From Casimicrobiaceae bacterium (GTDB taxonomy: Bacteria; Pseudomonadota; Gammaproteobacteria; Burkholderiales; Casimicrobiaceae), in NCBI GenBank assembly GCA_025056355.1, contig JANWWI010000009.1, positions 1 through 64,000 of the forward strand: 64,000 nt of DNA, read 5' to 3'. The position numbers and the translations under genes are program-made. Positions within the stretch are counted from its first letter, which is position 1, and each line of letters starts with the position of its first letter. Positions 14,761 through 25,137 of this stretch are shown here, piece by piece. A model generated the notes under the pieces. The model ran no database searches and was not told the DNA's origin. It worked only from the letters and a program-made list of their open reading frames with translations.

Positions 14761-16182
14761 GTGTCGACCAAGACCTATCAGGCAGGCGTCAAGGACTACG
14801 CCAAAACCTATTGGACTCCGGATTACATCCCGCTCGACACCGACTTGCTTGCGGTGTTCAAAGTCGTGCCTCAGCCCGGTGTGCCGCGCGAAGAGGCTGC
14901 GGCCGCTGTTGCGGCCGAGTCCTCGACCGGAACCTGGACCACCGTCTGGACCGACTTGCTCACGGATCTGGACTACTACAAGGGCCGCGCCTACAAGATC
15001 GAGCCGGTGCCGGGCGACCCGAACGCCTTCTACGCGTTCATCGCCTACCCGCTCGACTTGTTCGAGGAGGGTTCGGTGGTCAACGTGCTCACCTCGCTCG
15101 TGGGCAACGTCTTTGGCTTCAAGGCGGTGCGCAGCCTGCGACTTGAGGACATCCGCTTTCCGCTCGCTTATGTGAAGACCTGCGGCGGACCGCCCAACGG
15201 CATTCAGCTCGAGCGCGACCGGCTCAACAAGTACGGTCGGCCGCTGCTTGGCTGCACGATCAAGCCCAAGCTGGGGCTTTCGGCCAAGAACTACGGGCGC
15301 GCGGTCTATGAGTGCTTGCGCGGCGGGCTCGATTTCACGAAGGACGATGAAAACATCAACAGCCAGCCGTTCATGCGTTGGCAGCACCGCTTCGAGTTCG
15401 TGATGGAGGCGGTGAAGAAGGCCGAGGCCGAGACCGGGGAGCGCAAGGGGCACTACCTGAACGTCACCGCCCCGACGCCGGAGGAGATGTACAAGCGCGC
15501 CGAGTTTGCCAAGCAGCTCGGGGCGCCCATCATCATGCATGACTTCCTCACGGCAGGCTTCTGTGCGAACACGGGCCTGGCCAACTGGTGCCGCGAGAAC
15601 GGCATGCTCCTGCATATCCACCGCGCCATGCACGCGGTGATCGACAGAAACCCAATGCACGGCATCCACTTCCGTGTGCTCGCGAAGTGCCTTCGTCTCT
15701 CAGGCGGCGATCACCTGCACTCCGGCACCGTGGTCGGCAAGCTCGAAGGCGACCGCGAGGCCACGCTCGGTTGGGTCGACATCATGCGCGAGCCGTTTAT
15801 CCCGGAAAACCGCAAGCGCGGCATCTTCTTCGATCAGGACTGGGGCTCGATGCCGGGCGTGATGCCGGTGGCCTCCGGCGGCATCCATGTGTGGCATATG
15901 CCCGCACTGGTCACGATCTTCGGCGATGACTCGGTGCTTCAGTTTGGCGGCGGCACGCTCGGTCACCCCTGGGGCAACGCGGCCGGGGCGCATGCGAACC
16001 GTGTGGCGCTTGAAGCCTGCGTCGAAGCGCGCAATCAAGGGCGACCCATCGAGCGAGAGGGCCGCGAAATTCTCACTGAGGCGGCCAAACACTCGCCGGA
16101 GCTTGCGATCGCCATGGAGACCTGGAAAGAGATCAAGTTTGAATTCGACGTCGTCGACAAGCTCGACGTGGCCAAGCACTAA
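14761..16182 (+). CDS. cbbL: RuBisCO large subunit, form IA
   Basis: A 473-residue form IA large subunit. The carbamylated Lys is in [10 protein letters not shown] (about residue 194), catalytic Lys in [11 protein letters not shown], loop 6 region and [11 protein letters not shown] near the C-terminus. It carboxylates ribulose-1,5-bisphosphate. The GTG start at 14761 has AGGAGC 6 bases upstream. It is first of a plus-strand operon with cbbS and cso genes, so this is the carboxysomal (IAc) type. No activase genes (cbbQ/cbbO or cbbX) follow within the window. Confidence 0.98.
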
Positions 16183-16209
16183 GGGTGCGCTTTGAGGAGT
16201 GAGACGATC

Positions 16210-16551
16210 ATGGCCGACATTCTTCCCTATAAACCCACCGAGCGCCGCGGGGAAACCTTTTCCTACCTGCCGCCAATGACGCCGGAGCGCCTGCGCAAGC
16301 AAGTGGCCTATCTGATTGCGCAGGGCTGGAACCCCGCCATTGAACACACCGAGCCGGAGAAGTCCTTCTCCAACTACTGGTATCTCTGGAAGCTCCCGTT
16401 TTTTGGCGAGCGCTCGGTTGAGCGCGTCATGCAGGAGCTTGAAGCCTGCCATCGTGCGAACCCGGGGCACCATGTGCGTCTGATCGGTTACGACAACTAC
16501 GCTCAGTCGCAGGGAACGGCGTTCATCGTCTACCGCGCGCCGGGCCGCTAA
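16210..16551 (+). CDS. cbbS: RuBisCO small subunit, form IA
   Basis: A 113-residue small subunit, normal size for carboxysomal form IA. It shows the family pattern from the start ([22 protein letters not shown]) through [13 protein letters not shown] and ends [17 protein letters not shown]. The ATG at 16210 has GAGGAG 11-16 bases upstream and is preferred to an in-frame ATG... at 16192, which overlaps that site. It assembles with CbbL into the L8S8 enzyme and starts 27 bases after cbbL. Confidence 0.97.
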
Positions 16552-16611
16552 GGCCGCAAAGCGCACCAAGGTTTTCTCTGCCTGATCGTCTGAGCCCACG
16601 GGAGTGTGCCT

Positions 16612-18618
16612 GTGAACAGCTTCTCCGAAGGTCGCCGACTCGCCATGGAGCGCCGCCGCGCGCTTGCACAAGGCCGTGCCGCTTTGCCCCCGTCGCGCGA
16701 TCGCACCCGCGTATCGCGTGACCGCTTAGGCGGCCCCGCGCCGGAGGCGGCCTCTCAAAGCGCAGCGGCTCTAGCGCCTGCGCCGGCTGCGGCCGCACCC
16801 GTTGTGAGCGCAAGCGCGGCCACGAGTTCAGGCTTTACGGGCGGGCTCACGGGGCGGATCATGTCCATGCTCCGGCGGCGTCAGCTGAGCGCGGGCAAGG
16901 CCGCCCTTGCGACCGCAGCGGCGGGGCCAAACCAAAGCCCCCCGCTTTCCGTGGCGGCGGCGAGCGCCCCTGCGGTAGCCTCGACGGCCGAAGCATCGCC
17001 CGAGGTTGAAGCCGCCCCGCTCGTGCCCGAAGCCCGGATGAGCGGAGCACAAGTGGCCAAGCGCCTGCGTGCCGAGCGGGCTCGTGAAAAGGCCCTCGCA
17101 CAGGCCGCGAGCCCCCGTCCAACGCGGCCGCCTCGCCAGGGGCGCTTGGACTATCCGCCCAAGGTTGTGGTCGACTCCACCGCGGGCGGACAGCGCGTGA
17201 CGGGACTCAAGTACACCGAATCGGCGAAGGTGACCGGCGCTGAACAGGGGCTCGGCAAACCGATTTCCGGAACGCAGTACATCTCGCCCCGGGATGCGGC
17301 GATGCGTCCTCCTGCGCTCAAAGTCACCCAAAGCACCACGCCAGGCGGACATGTCGTCACAGGCACTCATGTGAGGACCCGTGTGCCGATCACCGGCGAT
17401 GAAGCCGGCGAGCGACAGCGCATCACGGGGGATCTCGATGGCAAGGTCGAGGATGATGTCACTGCGCGCGATCGTGCCAGCTACGACGGTGTGGCGCAGT
17501 TTGCGCGTCAAGCCAACCCACATGGGCATTCGGTCTTCGGCACGAATCTTGGTCGATCGCTGGTCGTGGCCGGATCCCGCGTCCGCGATCGGCAGCGTCC
17601 AATCGAGCTCACCGAGGGTGGACACCCGATCTCTGGCACGGCCGTGGGTCGAAGCGCCCGCGTCACCGGCGATGAGGCCGGCAGCTGCCGTGTTGTGACT
17701 GGAGATCAGTATCTCGCTCCTGCTGCGCGGCAGGCCGAGTGCGGTGGAGCAGGTGGTGGCACCGCAGCAGCCCCGAGCTTGGGCTACGAGCGGCGCGACC
17801 CGGTCACCGGCGCCAAAGTGACCGTGAGCTCAAGCTGGAGCGGTGCCAAGATTACGGGCACCGGCATCGATCACGATCCGGATGTCACGGGCGATGAGGC
17901 GGGCAGCTGCCGTGTCATCACCGGCACGCCTTATCAGAGCCCAGAGACGATTTACGGCTACTGCGCGCCCGAGGAGGCCCAGGCCGCCGAAGCGCGCCGT
18001 GGCCCGCGCGAGCCAAGGGTTTATGTGAGCGGCGATCTGCCGCTTGACAGCGAAGGGGTGACCGGCACCGAACGAGGCGCCGATCGCGCAATCACCGGCA
18101 CGCCATACTACGAGCCGCTGGCCGAAGCCCCGAGTGCGAAGGACAAGCTCGCCTCGATTGCGGCACGCTTTTCGATTTCCACGCCGCAGCGGCGCGCGCA
18201 GCTCGAGCATCGTGTTGATCCGCTTGCCGCGCCTTCGGCTGAGGCGCGCATCACCGGATCCTTCGCGCAAGGCGAGGGCAAGATCACCGGCAATGTCGAA
18301 TTCCACTTCGCGCCCCGCCGCGCGCCGCAAGACCGTGACGGTCGGCCGAAGATTTCCGGCGAAGGCGGCACGAAGAAGGCGAGGATTACCGGGGATGCAT
18401 GGGTTGAGCACGCCCTGGTCACTGGCACCGAGGGCTATATCGCACACGAGCGCAACCCCTCGGAGCGCGGCCAGGGCAAGCCGCAAGCCTTCGCCGGGAC
18501 ACGGTTTTTCAAGAGCAAGGCGCAGCATGAAGAGCCGCGCCAGATTGTGACCGGCATGGTGGGTTGGTCACCGAAGTCAGCAGCCAAAGTAACCCTATCC
18601 GGCGGGGCGCAGGGATAG
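16612..18618 (+). CDS. csoS2: Carboxysome assembly protein CsoS2 (short form)
   Basis: A 668-residue intrinsically disordered scaffold that ties RuBisCO to the shell. The N-terminal part has two clear RuBisCO-binding basic peptides (ERRRALAQGRAAL near residue 13, MLRRRQLSAGKAAL near 85) and a weaker third (about 145-165). The middle has four to five repeats with paired V/ITG motifs and Cys (GDEAGSCRVVTG, GDEAGSCRVITG). The C-terminal domain (about 510 on) ends VTLSGGAQG as in the family. The start is GTG 16612, with GGAG 7 bases before; a GTG at 16606 is too close. It is shorter than the roughly 870 residues of Halothiobacillus CsoS2. Confidence 0.93.
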   Translation: MNSFSEGRRLAMERRRALAQGRAALPPSRDRTRVSRDRLGGPAPEAASQSAAALAPAPAAAAPVVSASAATSSGFTGGLTGRIMSMLRRRQLSAGKAALATAAAGPNQSPPLSVAAASAPAVASTAEASPEVEAAPLVPEARMSGAQVAKRLRAERAREKALAQAASPRPTRPPRQGRLDYPPKVVVDSTAGGQRVTGLKYTESAKVTGAEQGLGKPISGTQYISPRDAAMRPPALKVTQSTTPGGHVVTGTHVRTRVPITGDEAGERQRITGDLDGKVEDDVTARDRASYDGVAQFARQANPHGHSVFGTNLGRSLVVAGSRVRDRQRPIELTEGGHPISGTAVGRSARVTGDEAGSCRVVTGDQYLAPAARQAECGGAGGGTAAAPSLGYERRDPVTGAKVTVSSSWSGAKITGTGIDHDPDVTGDEAGSCRVITGTPYQSPETIYGYCAPEEAQAAEARRGPREPRVYVSGDLPLDSEGVTGTERGADRAITGTPYYEPLAEAPSAKDKLASIAARFSISTPQRRAQLEHRVDPLAAPSAEARITGSFAQGEGKITGNVEFHFAPRRAPQDRDGRPKISGEGGTKKARITGDAWVEHALVTGTEGYIAHERNPSERGQGKPQAFAGTRFFKSKAQHEEPRQIVTGMVGWSPKSAAKVTLSGGAQG

Positions 18619-18622
18619 ACCC

Positions 18623-20215
18623 ATGGGCATCTTGAGTGCTCGCAGCTTGGCTCAGTCGAGCGCGCGGAGGGTGCGTGTACGCCCATTTCCGGTCGAGGCG
18701 GCCCTCGCCTACACCCGAGAGCATCAAGCTGCGCAGACGCGTTCGGCAAGCATCGCCTTCGTTCCGGCGCAGCCTGTCGGCGGTGTGGAAGGAGCACTCC
18801 ATCCGCTGGCCGATCCAGCGGTTGAACGTGCGCTTGAGGCGCGACGCGAGCGGATCGAGCAAACCTTTGCCGCGATCAGCGAACGGCTCGAAAGGCTTGC
18901 GCATGAGTCCATTCACGAGCGTGGCTACCGGTCGGCGCTTGCAACGATTGCCGCCGAGTGGGGCCTCGATTTCGGGCTTGAGTCGCCGCCGTATCACTGG
19001 GCGCATCCGCTGCCTTGGGGTGAGATTCATGCGCACGGTGTGCTTGCGGCATTTGCACGCCTTGCGGCGGAGGGCAACACCCTCAGCGCGCTCGAGCAGA
19101 CGGAGGGCGAGCCGGTCGAGGCGCTTGTGGCTCGCTTCGGCTTTCACGCAATCGATCTGGTGCCTTGTGCCGATGGGCGTCTTGCGGGACTGACCGAACA
19201 CATCTTGCGTGTGCCGCGCGCCATTGTGACCGCGCGTCGATCCTACGCCGGAGCGATGTTCGATATCGATGAGGCGGTGGCAGCCTGGCGGGCGGTGGAA
19301 ATCGAGCGCCTGCGTCGTCAGGTGGCCGGTCAGGTTTTGCCGCCAAGCCGCTTCCTCAAGATCGGGGTCTACCACGTGAGCGGCAGCCATCCGCAGCACG
19401 AAGGCTGCGCTGCTCACGGCAGCAACGACACACGCGCGATGTCGGCGTTGCTTGAGCGACTGGTGAGCTTTCAAGCCGCTGTCGAAATTCAGCACGGCGA
19501 GCGCCCGGCCATCCTTCTGATCGGGGTGGATACCGACAACGACGCAATCCGAGTGCATGTCCCCGATGCAGACGGCCGTGTGCACATCGAGCGTTTCGTC
19601 TCGAGCAACGACCTTCGGCATCTCACCCGTCGGCTGCCGCGTGAGGCGGGCAAAGCGCTCATTCGCGAGCGGGTGGCTGCCTGTGCAGGGGTGGCACCCG
19701 ACGATGCGGCCACCGAGGGCATGCGCTGGTTGTGCGGTTACTTGCTCAAAAACAACATCGGGCAGGTGGAAGCCGTCGAGCGCCTCTATGGCGGGCGATA
19801 TCCCGATCTCGGGCATGCTGAACGGCTGATCGTGGCCGGCGATCCGATCGATGAGGTGCAGTTGCGAAACCTCGCCTTTCAGACGCAGTTCACCACGCTC
19901 GAAGAGGGCGCGCGCGATGTGGCGGTTGGGCTCAGGCTGCTTGCGCATACGCATGCGCCGCGCGGCTATGCAATTCCGGTGCTGACCACCGCGCGTTATG
20001 ACGAGCGCCTTCCCGGAGCGCGAGTACGCGCGCAAGAGCGCGCCGAGCGGCATGCCGAGGCGATTCGCAGCCGCTACCCGCACGGGGTTGACGGCGCCTC
20101 GCTGGTGGTGCGGGCCGCAATCGTCGATCGCAGCGGGCGTATCGAATTCGTTGCGCCGCCGCGTCTAAGCGTCGGCGCCTTGTCTTCCTCAGCTCATGCA
20201 GAGGCTCTGTCATGA
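18623..20215 (+). CDS. csoSCA: Carboxysomal carbonic anhydrase CsoSCA (epsilon class)
   Basis: A 530-residue shell-associated carbonic anhydrase, close to the 514 of Halothiobacillus. Zinc ligands can be placed by spacing: Cys182 in PCADGR (with Asp184 and Arg186 as the catalytic dyad), His251 in YHVSGS and Cys262 in HEGC, 11 residues later. It dehydrates bicarbonate to CO2 inside the carboxysome. AGGGA lies 7 bases before the ATG, which is 4 bases after the csoS2 stop. The last 4 bases overlap the csoS4A start (ATGA). Confidence 0.95.
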   Translation: MGILSARSLAQSSARRVRVRPFPVEAALAYTREHQAAQTRSASIAFVPAQPVGGVEGALHPLADPAVERALEARRERIEQTFAAISERLERLAHESIHERGYRSALATIAAEWGLDFGLESPPYHWAHPLPWGEIHAHGVLAAFARLAAEGNTLSALEQTEGEPVEALVARFGFHAIDLVPCADGRLAGLTEHILRVPRAIVTARRSYAGAMFDIDEAVAAWRAVEIERLRRQVAGQVLPPSRFLKIGVYHVSGSHPQHEGCAAHGSNDTRAMSALLERLVSFQAAVEIQHGERPAILLIGVDTDNDAIRVHVPDADGRVHIERFVSSNDLRHLTRRLPREAGKALIRERVAACAGVAPDDAATEGMRWLCGYLLKNNIGQVEAVERLYGGRYPDLGHAERLIVAGDPIDEVQLRNLAFQTQFTTLEEGARDVAVGLRLLAHTHAPRGYAIPVLTTARYDERLPGARVRAQERAERHAEAIRSRYPHGVDGASLVVRAAIVDRSGRIEFVAPPRLSVGALSSSAHAEALS

Positions 20216-20505
20216 AGATCTGCCAAGTCGAAGGAACCCTGGTAGCCACAGCGCGCATCGGCAGTCTCGAGAACCGGCGCCTGCTCGTGGTCAAAGAGCG
20301 CGGATCAAGCGGCAAGCAAGTGGCGGTTGATCCGGTGGGCTGCAAGCCCGGCGACTGGGTGATCGTGGTCGGCTCTTCGGCCGCACGCGATGCTGCAGGC
20401 AGCAAGGACTACCCGAGCGATCTGACCATCGTCGGGATCATTGACTACTGGGATGAGGACAACCCGGCGGCCACTGGACCGTCGCAAGGTTCAGCCAAGA
20501 AATAA
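20212..20505 (+). CDS. csoS4A: Carboxysome shell vertex protein CsoS4A (pentamer)
   Basis: A 97-residue BMV-fold (EutN/CcmL-type) protein. The start MKICQVEGTLVATARI and the middle VDPVGCKPGDWVIVVGSSAARDAAGSK are the family signature. Pentamers cap the shell vertices and make it gas-tight. It is translationally coupled to csoSCA by an ATGA overlap. A short basic/polar tail (about residues 85-97) follows the fold. Confidence 0.96.
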   Translation: MKICQVEGTLVATARIGSLENRRLLVVKERGSSGKQVAVDPVGCKPGDWVIVVGSSAARDAAGSKDYPSDLTIVGIIDYWDEDNPAATGPSQGSAKK

Positions 20506-20523
20506 CCGGCGGAGGCGTGTGCG

Positions 20524-20784
20524 ATGCAGATCCATCGAGTGGTTCGAGATTTGGTCACCACCAAGCGCAACTGGTGGCTGCAAGCGAAGTCGCTGCGGGT
20601 GGTGGAGGATCACAAAGGCAACTACGAAGTCGCGCTTGATCCGATTGGCTGCAAGCCGGGCGACTTCGTCATCACGATCGGGGTGTCGGCAGCACGCATC
20701 GCTGCGGGCAACCCGAAGATCACCACCGATTTGACGATCGGCGGGATCATCGATGATTGGGACGAGACGCGCTGGCGAAGCTGA
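20524..20784 (+). CDS. csoS4B: Carboxysome shell vertex protein CsoS4B (pentamer)
   Basis: An 86-residue paralogue of CsoS4A with LDPIGCKPGDFVITIGVSAARIAAGN and a shared GIIDDWDE end. GGAGG lies about 8 bases before the ATG. Both vertex proteins are normally present in alpha-carboxysome operons. Confidence 0.96.
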   Translation: MQIHRVVRDLVTTKRNWWLQAKSLRVVEDHKGNYEVALDPIGCKPGDFVITIGVSAARIAAGNPKITTDLTIGGIIDDWDETRWRS

Positions 20785-20806
20785 GGCGTGCGAGGAAGTG
20801 TTGAGG

Positions 20807-20832
20807 TGGCGCGCGGTCTGATCCTCGCGCCA
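20807..20832 (+). other. Stem-loop between csoS4B and csoS1
   Basis: A perfect 7-bp stem, TGGCGCG with CGCGCCA, around a 12-base loop in the 97-base gap before csoS1. There is no T-tract, so it is not a terminator. It could protect or process the csoS1 message, since csoS1 must be made in far larger amounts than its operon neighbours. This is inference. Confidence 0.4.
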
Positions 20833-20881
20833 AGAGTCGAGCAAAGATGTTTTCAACCCTGCCAACTTGAGGAGAGTAACG

Positions 20882-21217
20882 ATGGCAAGCGAAAAGATGG
20901 GCATTGCCCTGGGCATGATCGAAACGCGCGGCTTGGTGCCCGCGATTGAGGCCGCCGATGCGATGACCAAAGCTTCGGAGGTGCGGCTGATCGGTCGGCA
21001 GTTTGTCGGCGGCGGTTATGTGACGGTGATGGTGCGCGGTGAGACCGGTGCGGTCAATGCTGCGGTGCGCGCCGGGGCCGATGCGTGCGAGCGCGTGGGC
21101 GATGGCTTGGCTGCGGCACACATCATCGCGCGTCCGCATCCTGAGGTCGAAGCCATTCTTCCGAAGTCGCCAAACGCCGGAGGCAGCGGTCGCGACGCCG
21201 ACGTCTCACGCAGCTAG
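20882..21217 (+). CDS. csoS1: Carboxysome major shell protein CsoS1 (hexamer)
   Basis: A 111-residue single-domain BMC protein. It opens GIALGMIETRGLVPAIEAADAM and continues with KASEVRLIGRQFVGGGYVTVMVRGETGAV, the hexamer signature including the FVGGGYV pore loop. GAGGAG precedes the ATG at 20882. Hexamers tile the shell facets and pass bicarbonate and RuBP. Most alpha-carboxysome loci carry two or three csoS1 copies in a row; only one is here. Confidence 0.97.
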   Translation: MASEKMGIALGMIETRGLVPAIEAADAMTKASEVRLIGRQFVGGGYVTVMVRGETGAVNAAVRAGADACERVGDGLAAAHIIARPHPEVEAILPKSPNAGGSGRDADVSRS

Positions 21218-21323
21218 GCGCGGGCCAGCCCTTGCGCGGACGCAAGCGCTTGTCGGCCGCAGTGCGCCCACTGTGCAGCCAAGATCATGCAAGATCAAGC
21301 GACGATAAACAGGATGGATGATC

Positions 21324-21590
21324 ATGGCGAATTGGCCTGAAGGTTGGCAAGAAATTGCGCGTCCGCCCGCGTTGTTCCGGCGCTACGAGTTTGCCAATTA
21401 CGCACAGACGCGCCGTTATCTCGATTTGCTTGCTGAGGAGTCCGAACGCACTGGTCGCTATCCGGATCTGAGTTTCGGCCCTCGGCATGTGAACGTCACG
21501 ATCGCGCTGGCTGCGGAGGATGAGGCGCTCGTTGCGGCCTTTGCCGTAGCGAGTGATAGCTTCGCTGAGCAGGCGCGCGCGGGTGCATAG
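21324..21590 (+). CDS. Alpha-carboxysome RuBisCO assembly factor acRAF (PCD-like)
   Basis: An 88-residue protein of the pterin-4a-carbinolamine-dehydratase-like fold: W-x-E-I-x-RPPALFRRYEFANYAQTRRYLD, then LSFGPRHVNVTI. Proteins of this type in carboxysome operons act as RuBisCO assembly chaperones rather than dehydratases. The ATG at 21324 has AGGA 9 bases before it; an in-frame ATG at 21318 is only 3 bases from it. It follows csoS1 by 106 bases, its usual neighbourhood. Confidence 0.88.
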   Translation: MANWPEGWQEIARPPALFRRYEFANYAQTRRYLDLLAEESERTGRYPDLSFGPRHVNVTIALAAEDEALVAAFAVASDSFAEQARAGA

Positions 21591-21615
21591 CCAACCTCCA
21601 CTGCCGCTTTCTGCT

Positions 21616-21810
21616 ATGTCAAGAAGCCGTCCTGCCCTGAAGCCTGCAGCGACCACACCTCAAGCGCGCACGCCCACGAAAAACCCAACGGCTTTGCGCG
21701 AGGTCGGGAAGGCTGCCGAGCGCAACACGCACGCGTCGCGTTCAGTGCGCGACCAAGCCGTCTCGGCGCGGTCGACGCTCATGCCTCCCTTGCCGGTTTG
21801 GCCTGATTAG
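21616..21810 (+). CDS. Small basic disordered protein, possible McdB-like carboxysome positioning factor
   Basis: A 64-residue frame rich in Ala, Thr, Pro, Arg and Ser, with no hydrophobic core and therefore probably disordered. It ends PPLPVWPD, with its only Trp third from the C-terminus. McdB proteins of carboxysome loci are small, disordered and have an invariant Trp near the C-terminus, and lie beside acRAF or shell genes; this ORF starts 26 bases after acRAF. Against: no good ribosome-binding site (a GTG at 21583 is another possible start), slightly lower third-position GC, and no McdA ParA-type partner in the window. The coding status is uncertain and the identity is a hypothesis. Confidence 0.4.
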   Translation: MSRSRPALKPAATTPQARTPTKNPTALREVGKAAERNTHASRSVRDQAVSARSTLMPPLPVWPD

Positions 21811-21830: not shown

Positions 21831-22778
21831 GTGTCCTGGCCTGCCTCGGCACACCCCCTGAGGGCTACGCAGCGGGTACTGCACCCCGAACGGCGACCGT
21901 TGATCGAGGTTGCGGTCGCAATCGTTCGCGATGCTCAAGGGCGCATCCTCATGGCCGAGCGGCTGCCGCATCAGCTCTCGCCCGGCTACTGGGAATTGCC
22001 AGGCGGCAAGATCGATCCGGGCGAAACACCGCTTGAGGCCGCGCGGCGCGAAACGCTCGAGGAAACCGGGCTCGCGATTGGCGACTTGCGTCCGTTTGTG
22101 CGCTATGAGCATCTCTACCCACTTCGTCGTCTTCGCTTGAATTTCTTCCTCGCAGGCGCGTACAGCGGTCAGGCACACGGACGTGAAGGGCAGCGGATTG
22201 CCTGGGTGAATCCCGTTGCGCCCGAAGTGGCGCCAATCCTCCCTTCGAACTATCGCGCTCTGGCGCTCCTGGGGCTGCCGCGCTTTGGTCGATCAGTCGC
22301 AAGCGATCGTTGGCAGCCAGAGCCGGCCGAGGAGCTGGCCATCGTTCGTCCGGGCAAGCTCTCGAGCGAGATGGCCCTCAGACGGATCCAGCACTTTGCG
22401 TCGAGGGGTTTACGGCCACGCCGGCTTTGGGTGGAGGGGCCGCTTGCGCTGGCGATTGCCGCGCGGGCCGAAGCGCTCGTCAGCCACGAGCCGCCCGAGC
22501 GTTGGCCCGCGCGCCCGTCGGTGCCGCTCTGGGTGGTACGTGTGCAAAGTGCCGAGGCGCTACACCGCTACGCGGCTCTCGGGGCCGATGTTGGGCTGCT
22601 TCCGATGAGTGCGTTTTCGGAGCCCCTTGCAGCCAGCGCCCGCGCGCTGATGCCGGCGGTTTACCTCGAGGCGCGCGCCACGGAGCTCGAGACCGCACAA
22701 GCGCTCGTGCGCCGCCACGGGCTGAGCGGGCACATCCTGCGCGAATGCGGCTGCGGCGGCTGTCGCGGCCCGAGCTAA
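21831..22778 (+). CDS. Nudix hydrolase (MutT-like) fused to a ThiE-like domain
   Basis: A 315-residue two-domain protein. The Nudix domain (about 20-150) has the full box GGKIDPGETPLEAARRETLEETG, that is G-x5-E-x7-RE-x2-EE-x-G. The C-terminal half (about 185-310) resembles the TIM-barrel of thiamine-phosphate synthase, ending in a Cys-rich ECGCGGCRG. MutT/ThiE-like fusions are known in Betaproteobacteria and are thought to clear 8-oxo-dGTP. The start is GTG at 21831 after CGGAGAAG. Its place between acRAF and the SulP gene is unusual and leaves open a role tied to the carboxysome. Confidence 0.82.
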   Translation: MSWPASAHPLRATQRVLHPERRPLIEVAVAIVRDAQGRILMAERLPHQLSPGYWELPGGKIDPGETPLEAARRETLEETGLAIGDLRPFVRYEHLYPLRRLRLNFFLAGAYSGQAHGREGQRIAWVNPVAPEVAPILPSNYRALALLGLPRFGRSVASDRWQPEPAEELAIVRPGKLSSEMALRRIQHFASRGLRPRRLWVEGPLALAIAARAEALVSHEPPERWPARPSVPLWVVRVQSAEALHRYAALGADVGLLPMSAFSEPLAASARALMPAVYLEARATELETAQALVRRHGLSGHILRECGCGGCRGPS

Positions 22779-22803: not shown

Positions 22804-25137
22804 ATGGAGGGAATTTCCGTGCATGAGGCTCGCCGCGATCTGCCCGCCTCTGGGTTCGCGGGGCTCAAGCATTGGCGCGACGATTTGGCCGCAGGCATTC
22901 AAGTCGCGCTGCTTTGGACGCCGTTTTCGCTCGGGGTCGCGATCGCCTCAGGGGCGCCGGCCGTGGCCGGGCTTATTTCCGCGATCGTGGCCGGCTTGCT
23001 CTATCCCTTCCTCGGCGGATCGCATGTCACGGTAAGCGGCCCGGCCGCCGCGCTTGCTCCGGTGTTGCTCTGGGGCATGTTGATGCTGGGGGAGGGCGAC
23101 CTGGCCAAAGGCTATCCGCTCGTGCTGGTGGCCATCGTGCTCACCGGCGTGCTGCAAATCATTCTTTCGCTGCTACGAGCCGGACAGTACGCGAGCATGC
23201 TGCCCTCGACCGTGATCGAGGCGATGCTGGCTGCCATCGGCGTCATGATCATCGTGCGGCAGTTGCCGCCGCTGCTGGGTGCGCCTTCGGTGCCAACGAA
23301 AGGGGTGCTCGATGCCCTGGCCAAGCTGCCCGAGCAACTCGTGCAGGCCGATCTGATCGTTGCGGCCATTGGGCTTGCTTCGCTTGCGCTCATGTTTGCG
23401 CTGCGCAACCCACGCCAGATGTGGCTGCGCCGCCTGCCTTCGGCCATCCTCGTTGCCCTCTTCGGCATCGTGGCGGCCTATGCCGCTGGGCTTGATGAAC
23501 GCTTCCTCATCAAGATGCCGACCAACTTCCTCGAAGGCTTCCGGATGCCGGCCTTCGACCAGGCGCTGGCGGCTCCCGAACTGTGGCTGCCGATGCTGCT
23601 CGTGGTTTTTGTCTTCACGATGATTGATGGCGTGGAATCGGTGGCCAGCGTCAAGGCGGTTGACAAGATTGACCCCTGGCGGCGCAAGAGCGATGCCAAC
23701 AAAACCTTGCGCGCGATGGGCATCTGCAATTTGACCTCTGGCATGCTCGGCGGTCTGACCGTGATCCCGAACGCCGTGCCGAGCCGCGCCAACATCGATG
23801 CCGGGGCACGTACGCTCTGGTCGAACTTCTGGAGCGGCGTGCTGCTCGTGCTCTTCGCGGTCGCCTTGCCGTGGTTGCTTGCGCGTATTCCGCTTGCGGC
23901 AATTGCCGGTATTCTCATCTACATCGGTTGGCGATTGTGCGAGCCGGCGCTCATTCGCCGCATGTATTCGATTGGCCTGGATCGATTCGTGGTCTTTATC
24001 GGCACGCTGGCGGCGATCCTGGCCACCGATCTGCTGGTGGGCATGCTGATCGGGGTGGCCATCGAGCTCACCTTGCTCGTTTATTTGCTCATGCCTTCCG
24101 TACGCTATGTGCTGACCGGCAGGCTCGATTGGGCCAGTTCGAATCGGCTGCTCTGGGAAAACTTCTCCGGCATGTTTCGCTCGCCGGTCATTCGCGAGCG
24201 GCTCGAGACCCGCAGCGGACGCCCGCATGCCACCTTCACGATGCGATCGCTCGTGGGGTTCAATCTCCTGCAGCTTCAAAAACGAATTGCGGCCTTGCCG
24301 CCGGGGGCCGGCCTGACGCTGCACTTTACCGAATCGGCCCGGATCATCGATCACACGGCGGTTGAGTATCTACGGGAGCTCGAGGAGGAGTTCGCAGCCG
24401 AAGGGCGACCCTTCGCCATTGAAGGGGAGGAGAATTTCTTCCGCTTCTCGGCGCATCCGCTTGCATCGCGCATGCAAGAGCCGAAGCTGGCGCGCCAGCA
24501 AGCCGATCTGTCCGAACGGGCTCGGCTGCTGGCCGGCTTTGCCGCGCGGCATGGGCTTGCCTTTCGCGCCGAGACCGTGGCCACCATCAACCGGCATGGG
24601 TTTATTTACTTGCAGCGCGGTGCGCAGCGCGAGGAAGCGCACGTGGCAAGCGGCCCGTGGCAGGGCGGCACGCTACGCGTGAGCGACTACAGTCACACCT
24701 CACCGCCGGACTATCACCTCGCACACCGGCACACCCTGTTTGTGTTTGAGTACCCGGCGGGCGAGAACGGCTTCGGGCCCGCCGCGCTCACCCCCGGGCA
24801 CTACCTTGAGCGTTATCTGGTGCAACTGCCGGAGGTCAATAGCGCAGCATTGCCTGAAGGCTACCGCGCCTATGGGGAGGCTGACGCGCTTGAACGTTTG
24901 TTGAGTGAGTCCGTCCGCCAAGCCATTGCGACGCTGGGCGCGGTCTACATTGAATGGCAGCCGAGCGCAATTCTGCTGTTCCGCCCGTTTGTTGCGCTTG
25001 AAAATGAAGAGGCGATCGAAGCGCTTCTGGCCGCCTTTGCACAGGTGGTCTGCGTTGCGCGGGCAGCCCGCGCCGAGGCCAGTCGCATCCAGGCCGACGC
25101 TTCCTCCTCCGTCGAGCAAAGCCTCGCCGTGCGCTGA
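22804..25137 (+). CDS. SulP-family transporter, candidate bicarbonate importer, with extra C-terminal domain
   Basis: A 777-residue protein. About ten to twelve helices fill residues 25-435, with the SulP pattern VSGPAAALAPV and a TMIDGVESVASVKAVDKIDPWRRKSDANK segment. A STAS domain follows (about 470-560). A further 200-odd residues (560-777) carry HRHTLFVFEYPAGENGF and a Glu/Ala-rich helix; I recognise no family there. SulP members near carboxysome genes in chemolithoautotrophs are predicted inorganic-carbon transporters, and the position 25 bases after the Nudix gene supports that. Sulfate is the alternative substrate. Confidence 0.85.
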   Translation: MEGISVHEARRDLPASGFAGLKHWRDDLAAGIQVALLWTPFSLGVAIASGAPAVAGLISAIVAGLLYPFLGGSHVTVSGPAAALAPVLLWGMLMLGEGDLAKGYPLVLVAIVLTGVLQIILSLLRAGQYASMLPSTVIEAMLAAIGVMIIVRQLPPLLGAPSVPTKGVLDALAKLPEQLVQADLIVAAIGLASLALMFALRNPRQMWLRRLPSAILVALFGIVAAYAAGLDERFLIKMPTNFLEGFRMPAFDQALAAPELWLPMLLVVFVFTMIDGVESVASVKAVDKIDPWRRKSDANKTLRAMGICNLTSGMLGGLTVIPNAVPSRANIDAGARTLWSNFWSGVLLVLFAVALPWLLARIPLAAIAGILIYIGWRLCEPALIRRMYSIGLDRFVVFIGTLAAILATDLLVGMLIGVAIELTLLVYLLMPSVRYVLTGRLDWASSNRLLWENFSGMFRSPVIRERLETRSGRPHATFTMRSLVGFNLLQLQKRIAALPPGAGLTLHFTESARIIDHTAVEYLRELEEEFAAEGRPFAIEGEENFFRFSAHPLASRMQEPKLARQQADLSERARLLAGFAARHGLAFRAETVATINRHGFIYLQRGAQREEAHVASGPWQGGTLRVSDYSHTSPPDYHLAHRHTLFVFEYPAGENGFGPAALTPGHYLERYLVQLPEVNSAALPEGYRAYGEADALERLLSESVRQAIATLGAVYIEWQPSAILLFRPFVALENEEAIEALLAAFAQVVCVARAARAEASRIQADASSSVEQSLAVR

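Follow-up and report, generated by a model that had tools for sequence, protein, structure and literature searches.

A probable orphan alpha-McdB behind acRAF in a carboxysome locus of a Casimicrobiaceae genome

Can an McdB persist at a carboxysome locus without its partner McdA, and what would such a protein do? This question is raised by a short ORF at the 3' end of the cso operon in a 64,000-nucleotide stretch of Casimicrobiaceae DNA (i.e. the window), which derives from a MAG (G000) of 2.62 Mb in 170 contigs with a completeness of 98%.

The reading frame behind acRAF

The first-pass annotation had proposed a minimal McdB-like protein from a 64-residue, basic, low-complexity ORF ending in PPLPVWPD. 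Examination of the frame confirmed an ATG start and 64 codons, with the translation MSRSRPALKPAATTPQARTPTKNPTALREVGKAAERNTHASRSVRDQAVSARSTLMPPLPVWPD, whilst the distance from acRAF was corrected from 26 to 25 nt (acRAF ends at 21590). The term 'minimal' was dropped, as published alpha-McdBs span 51–169 aa and McdBs of 51 aa were found beside mcdA. A Nudix-domain gene begins 20 nt further on and is also the neighbour behind the orphan mcdB in the congener G009 and in G190. The earlier doubt about a weak ribosome-binding site stands: no Shine-Dalgarno match was detected 5' of the ATG or 5' of an in-frame alternative GTG at 21553. In G009 and at locus L048, the mcdB start codon overlaps the acRAF stop codon as ATGA, making translational coupling of the ORF to acRAF plausible. 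Scans of the 64-aa ORF against Pfam and NCBIfam gave no match, and its use as a protein query against 60 relatives gave weak, low-complexity matches only; homologues are findable by position and motif and not by sequence.

Table 1. Features around the ORF behind acRAF, in window coordinates
Feature	Position	Strand	Basis or remark
cso operon (cbbL, cbbS, csoS2, csoSCA, csoS4A, csoS4B, one csoS1)	14761..21217	+	ORFs; Pfam for csoS2, csoSCA and csoS1
acRAF, Rubisco assembly factor, pterin-dehydratase fold	21318..21590	+	Pfam Pterin_4a, 26.2 bits; immediately upstream of the ORF
Gap between acRAF and the ORF	21591..21615	+	25 nt; slot occupied by mcdA (~630 nt) in mcdA-bearing loci
Predicted orphan alpha-McdB homologue	21616..21810	+	64 aa, pI ~11.8, basic, low-complexity, ends VWPD
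VWPD-stop, putative carboxysome-binding motif of alpha-McdBs	21796..21810	+	Sole [VI]WPD-stop site in genome and window
Nudix-domain protein	21831..22778	+	Pfam NUDIX; downstream of the ORF

Several other features of the locus were recorded. A bacterioferritin-like gene, located between csoS1 and acRAF in most surveyed loci, is absent from this position (20882–21590) in the window and is likewise absent in G009 and G190. The cso operon is compact, and a single csoS1 copy is present in both the window and G190. CsoSCA (18623–20215) is strongly divergent, with an end branch of 1.35 and a best identity of 48%, to G190; the catalytic domain gives a Pfam match of 274.7 bits, and CxDxR and H/C active-site-type motifs (i.e. 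PCADGRL and HPQHEGC) are readable by eye. Positions 22804–25137 encode a 777-aa SulP-family permease with a Pfam Sulfate_transp match over residues 26–397, an overlapping MFS_MOT1 match within it and no further Pfam match at E 0.01 in the C-terminal part. Its position in a carboxysome locus makes this permease a candidate bicarbonate transporter.

The C-terminal VWPD and its distribution

Alpha-McdBs are almost wholly disordered proteins with an invariant WPD within R(V/I)WPD at the C-terminus (PMC11321042), and the C-terminal 10 aa of the Halothiobacillus neapolitanus McdB are enough for association with carboxysomes (PMC11321042; PMC8262871). The window protein carries the WPD and the V of this consensus, with Pro in place of the non-invariant Arg. 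A search for the DNA pattern encoding [VI]WPD followed by TRR yielded one site in the whole genome, at this ORF, and one site in G009, in the same slot; a search of both strands of the window for [VI]WPD-stop likewise returned this site only. No such sites arose in 5 Mb of composition-matched simulated sequence. Given the single genomic site and the empty simulation, chance placement of a [VI]WPD-stop ORF right behind acRAF is very unlikely.

The genes of the window cso operon served as queries for a comparison of loci. An acRAF alignment search of 399 genomes of the order identified 42 acRAF-bearing genomes, whose loci were compared, and a class-level sample, with G060 at its centre, contributed a further 69 examined loci; acRAF homologues lie at the cso operon end in the surveyed loci. 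A [VI]WPD-stop ORF was present behind acRAF in 42/42 loci of the order and 67/69 at class level (i.e. 109/111 in total). That all collected proteins carry WPD follows by construction, since the pattern search selects for it, and the informative count is that of loci with the ORF. In one exception (L283), the acRAF concerned is the second copy of its genome, G779. In the other (L253, 3900–4200, from G487), csoS genes, acRAF and mcdA are present with no [VI]WPD-stop ORF behind mcdA; either the McdB of this genome has a different terminus or mcdB has been lost. The earlier suggestion of an McdB-like protein, made from a Trp close to the C-terminus, is therefore upheld by the fit of VWPD to the published consensus (PMC11321042) and by the occupancy of the acRAF slot. 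A chance ORF in the acRAF–Nudix gap would explain the missing ribosome-binding site, the low complexity and a nearly flat codon-position GC (0.62/0.66/0.69), but is scarcely credible in view of the recurrence of slot and terminus across these loci, the uniqueness of the motif in the genome and the simulation.

Retention of the frame and the Trp in relatives, which had been put forward as a check, was observed in G009 (L047) and in more distant loci. The acRAF proteins of G009 and the window are 68–69% identical. VWPD is kept in G009 with only synonymous changes in its codons, whilst the remainder of the protein has diverged and alignment of the two proteins is difficult beyond the C-terminus. 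At position -5, 107/111 collected McdBs have Arg, the window protein has Pro and the G009 protein has Ala, a substitution suggesting that shell binding by the window protein may be weaker.

McdA in the genome and its loss from related loci

The usual gene order, acRAF-mcdA-mcdB, was found in 78 loci. At the order level, mcdA lies between acRAF and mcdB in 32 of the 42 loci and mcdB is an orphan in 10, whilst 46 of the 67 class-level loci with the ORF have mcdA and 21 do not. In the window, where the first-pass annotation had seen no McdA, the best tblastn match to ParA/McdA (E 0.004 over 35 aa) was unconvincing. An orphan or a reduced system had been envisaged, with a ParA/McdA gene to be sought elsewhere in the genome. 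A PF13614 (ParA) search of G000 recovered a chromosomal ParA beside ParB (contig C86), a tandem ParA pair (contig C82) and an Mrp/ApbC-like protein. With an alpha-McdA profile built from 11 sequences, true McdAs scored 240–329 bits as compared to 91 bits for the best ParA in G000 and 100 bits in G009. Thus no alpha-McdA was found in the 98%-complete MAG by profile search, and the single [VI]WPD-stop site gives no second McdB, in agreement with the orphan state. It is possible that mcdA lies in the unassembled part of the MAG, against which G009 agrees with the window genome and G248, a closed genome (one contig, 100% completeness), is McdA-free.

The C82 pair (76800–78006) lies beside a DUF72-like gene, and similar tandems occur in most of the carboxysome-free congeners examined. 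As a candidate for the missing McdA this pair was rejected, since like ParA hits were present in 7/7 carboxysome-free congeners and scores were far below those of true McdAs. A partnership of the McdB with another ParA-family ATPase such as this pair, which is found in both G000 and G009, is highly improbable for the same reason, the hits in the carboxysome-free congeners being mostly tandem, and because the McdB N-terminal motif is absent.

Across 32 genomes with an orphan McdB (the window genome and G060 included), 18 encode a true McdA elsewhere, in keeping with the published type 2, and 14 do not (i.e. G000, G009, G306, G248, G334, G190, G126, G083, G231, G373, G652, G568, G572 and G748), although the McdA-free genomes other than G248 are mostly drafts and four class-level ones carry no completeness figure. 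Remnants of mcdA were visible in some of these. Only the last mcdA codons (ADIEAIIEEVL) persist between acRAF and mcdB in G231, and in G373 the central and terminal parts of mcdA are fused by an internal deletion. In both cases mcdB is intact and has the N-terminal motif, and the remnants (L160, 6410–6560; L154, 6170–6220) apparently reflect recent and separate losses in one genus. In G126 and G083, a probable mcdA 3' remnant (TRFQAVLEEVSNV and a stop codon) closes with an ATGA overlap, as is typical where mcdB follows mcdA. No mcdA remnant was observed in the window locus, including its 25-nt gap (in which no Shine-Dalgarno was seen either), or in that of G009.

A csoSCA tree joins the window and the McdA-free G190 as sisters (100/100), and both fall inside a supported group with the McdA-free G126 and G083 and the mcdA-bearing G506, the long window branch leaving some doubt as to its exact place. 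The McdA-free label requires at least six changes on this tree, indicating that the McdA-free state is not a single event. The remnants in two, and probably four, genomes indicate that mcdA has been lost repeatedly.

Divergence of the N-terminus and the role of an McdB alone

The N-termini of McdBs with and without mcdA were compared using a profile built from the N-terminal 24 residues of 79 McdA-adjacent McdBs, one of which came from G060 where mcdAB is divergent beside cbbL. McdA-adjacent McdBs had a cross-validated median of 27.8 bits and a minimum of 5.1 bits. The window protein scored 0.6 bits and orphans did not exceed 2.7 bits, excepting the recent losers G231 and G373, whose McdBs retain the McdA-side motif (32.1 and 23.1 bits). 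The window N-terminus is basic but lacks the KLxxSxRxxK-like motif of McdA-adjacent McdBs. On composition, the protein is predicted to be disordered, of low hydrophobicity and biased in the manner of alpha-McdBs, with a charge-hydropathy value of -0.11 (i.e. the disordered side), 15% ILVFMWY and 70% K/A/P/T/S/R.

A basic, disordered chain could alternatively serve as a stand-alone nucleoid tether, with VWPD on the carboxysome and KPAA/TPxK-like segments on DNA, replacing McdA in the manner of AlgP/PhaF. KPAA repeats of AlgP bind DNA and are required for even granule spacing (PMC9239181); the G009 McdB is KPAA-rich, the window protein (pI 11.8) has KPAA and TPTK elements and many orphan McdBs are H1-like. 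The AlgP/PhaF granule-nucleoid tethers partly resemble the window protein in their basic, KPAA-like disordered composition and, by analogy, in a possible one-protein link between particle and DNA. They differ in that there is no sequence family match, the window protein is much shorter and its composition is not enriched over that of McdA-dependent McdBs. The expectation that McdA-free McdBs had turned more basic was not supported: the K+R fraction was lower than in McdA-adjacent McdBs (p=0.002) and net charge was no different (p=0.49). Orphan McdBs of G126 and G083 have a pI of 6–7, and no Pfam DNA-binding family was matched. A tether replacing McdA, though attractive for the KPAA-rich protein of G009, is unlikely.

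A decaying relic, in which mcdB follows mcdA out of the genome and has no present function, would be consistent with the missing Shine-Dalgarno, the loss of the -5 Arg and the ongoing erosion of mcdA in G231 and G373. We consider such a relic distinctly unlikely, as the open frame and VWPD are retained in both G000 and G009 although these have diverged deeply. Estimates of dN/dS argue mildly in the same direction, with values of 0.41–0.54 in the McdA-free f20 trio and ~0.48, suggestive only due to saturated dS, for the window and G009; the G126–G083 pair was too close to be informative. The ORF is also present in 14/14 McdA-free genomes, though these were chosen for carrying it.

Similarities to described systems were then considered. 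The H. neapolitanus McdB (type 1) shares with the window protein the C-terminal (V/I)WPD, the small, basic and disordered chain and the slot behind acRAF/mcdA. In contrast to type 1, the window has no mcdA immediately upstream and none was found in the window or genome, the N-terminal motif falls far below the type 1 median and the -5 Arg is replaced. Type 2, in the account of MacCready et al. 2021 given in PMC8262871, is an orphan mcdB in the cso operon that occurs in addition to an mcdAB located at a distance. As far as that account extends, the window mcdB resembles type 2 in its location in a cso operon without adjoining mcdA, its disordered chain with a WPD C-terminus and its lack of the N-terminal element associated with binding of McdA. 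It differs from the same account in being the only [VI]WPD site of a genome (98% complete, not closed) with no alpha-McdA found, and in having a basic N-terminus from which only the motif is missing, whereas a charged N-terminus is described as lacking in type 2. Orphan alpha-McdBs are already known; an only-McdB orphan in an McdA-free proteobacterium exceeds the type 2 description available in that account, but may already be tabulated in the 2021 survey. Orphan beta-McdBs of cyanobacteria are similar in that McdB is kept without McdA, which was read as an McdA-independent function, and dissimilar in belonging to the other carboxysome type, having a coiled coil and having a more degenerate C-terminal motif (PMC8406218).

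The identity of the ORF as an alpha-McdB is well supported by terminus and position. Most likely, and with considerable confidence, it is a type 2-like orphan that would serve as a carboxysome-surface adaptor or condensate protein without McdA, a function that we infer from this identity. From an ancestral order of acRAF-mcdA-mcdB, mcdA would have been lost, after which the McdA-contacting N-terminus would have decayed and the carboxysome-binding C-terminus been retained. The VWPD tail would dock the disordered basic chain onto the carboxysome shell, where McdB would act without McdA, probably spacing carboxysomes or tuning a surface condensate layer; ParA-driven positioning is a less likely role. 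In S. elongatus, mcdB mutants have a stronger (division) phenotype than the mcdA mutant, and an McdA-independent role has been argued for McdB, which is an orphan in many species (PMC8406218). A bolder proposal, which we regard as rather unlikely, is that of a one-protein, McdA-free carboxysome organiser, with the basic chain on the nucleoid or forming a surface condensate and VWPD on the carboxysome, that would spread carboxysomes with no ParA ATPase and that arose several times via mcdA loss.

McdB is thought to act beyond McdA-driven positioning, and its roles are hard to separate where both proteins are present. Natural experiments are provided by lineages in which mcdB has outlasted mcdA, where the C-terminal WPD is retained and the N-terminal motif decays, and the McdA-free lineages are candidates for studying McdB alone. 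With McdA apparently absent genome-wide, the role left to the adaptor by itself becomes the question. If carboxysomes are still evenly spread in McdA-free bacteria, a ParA-free organising mechanism must exist.
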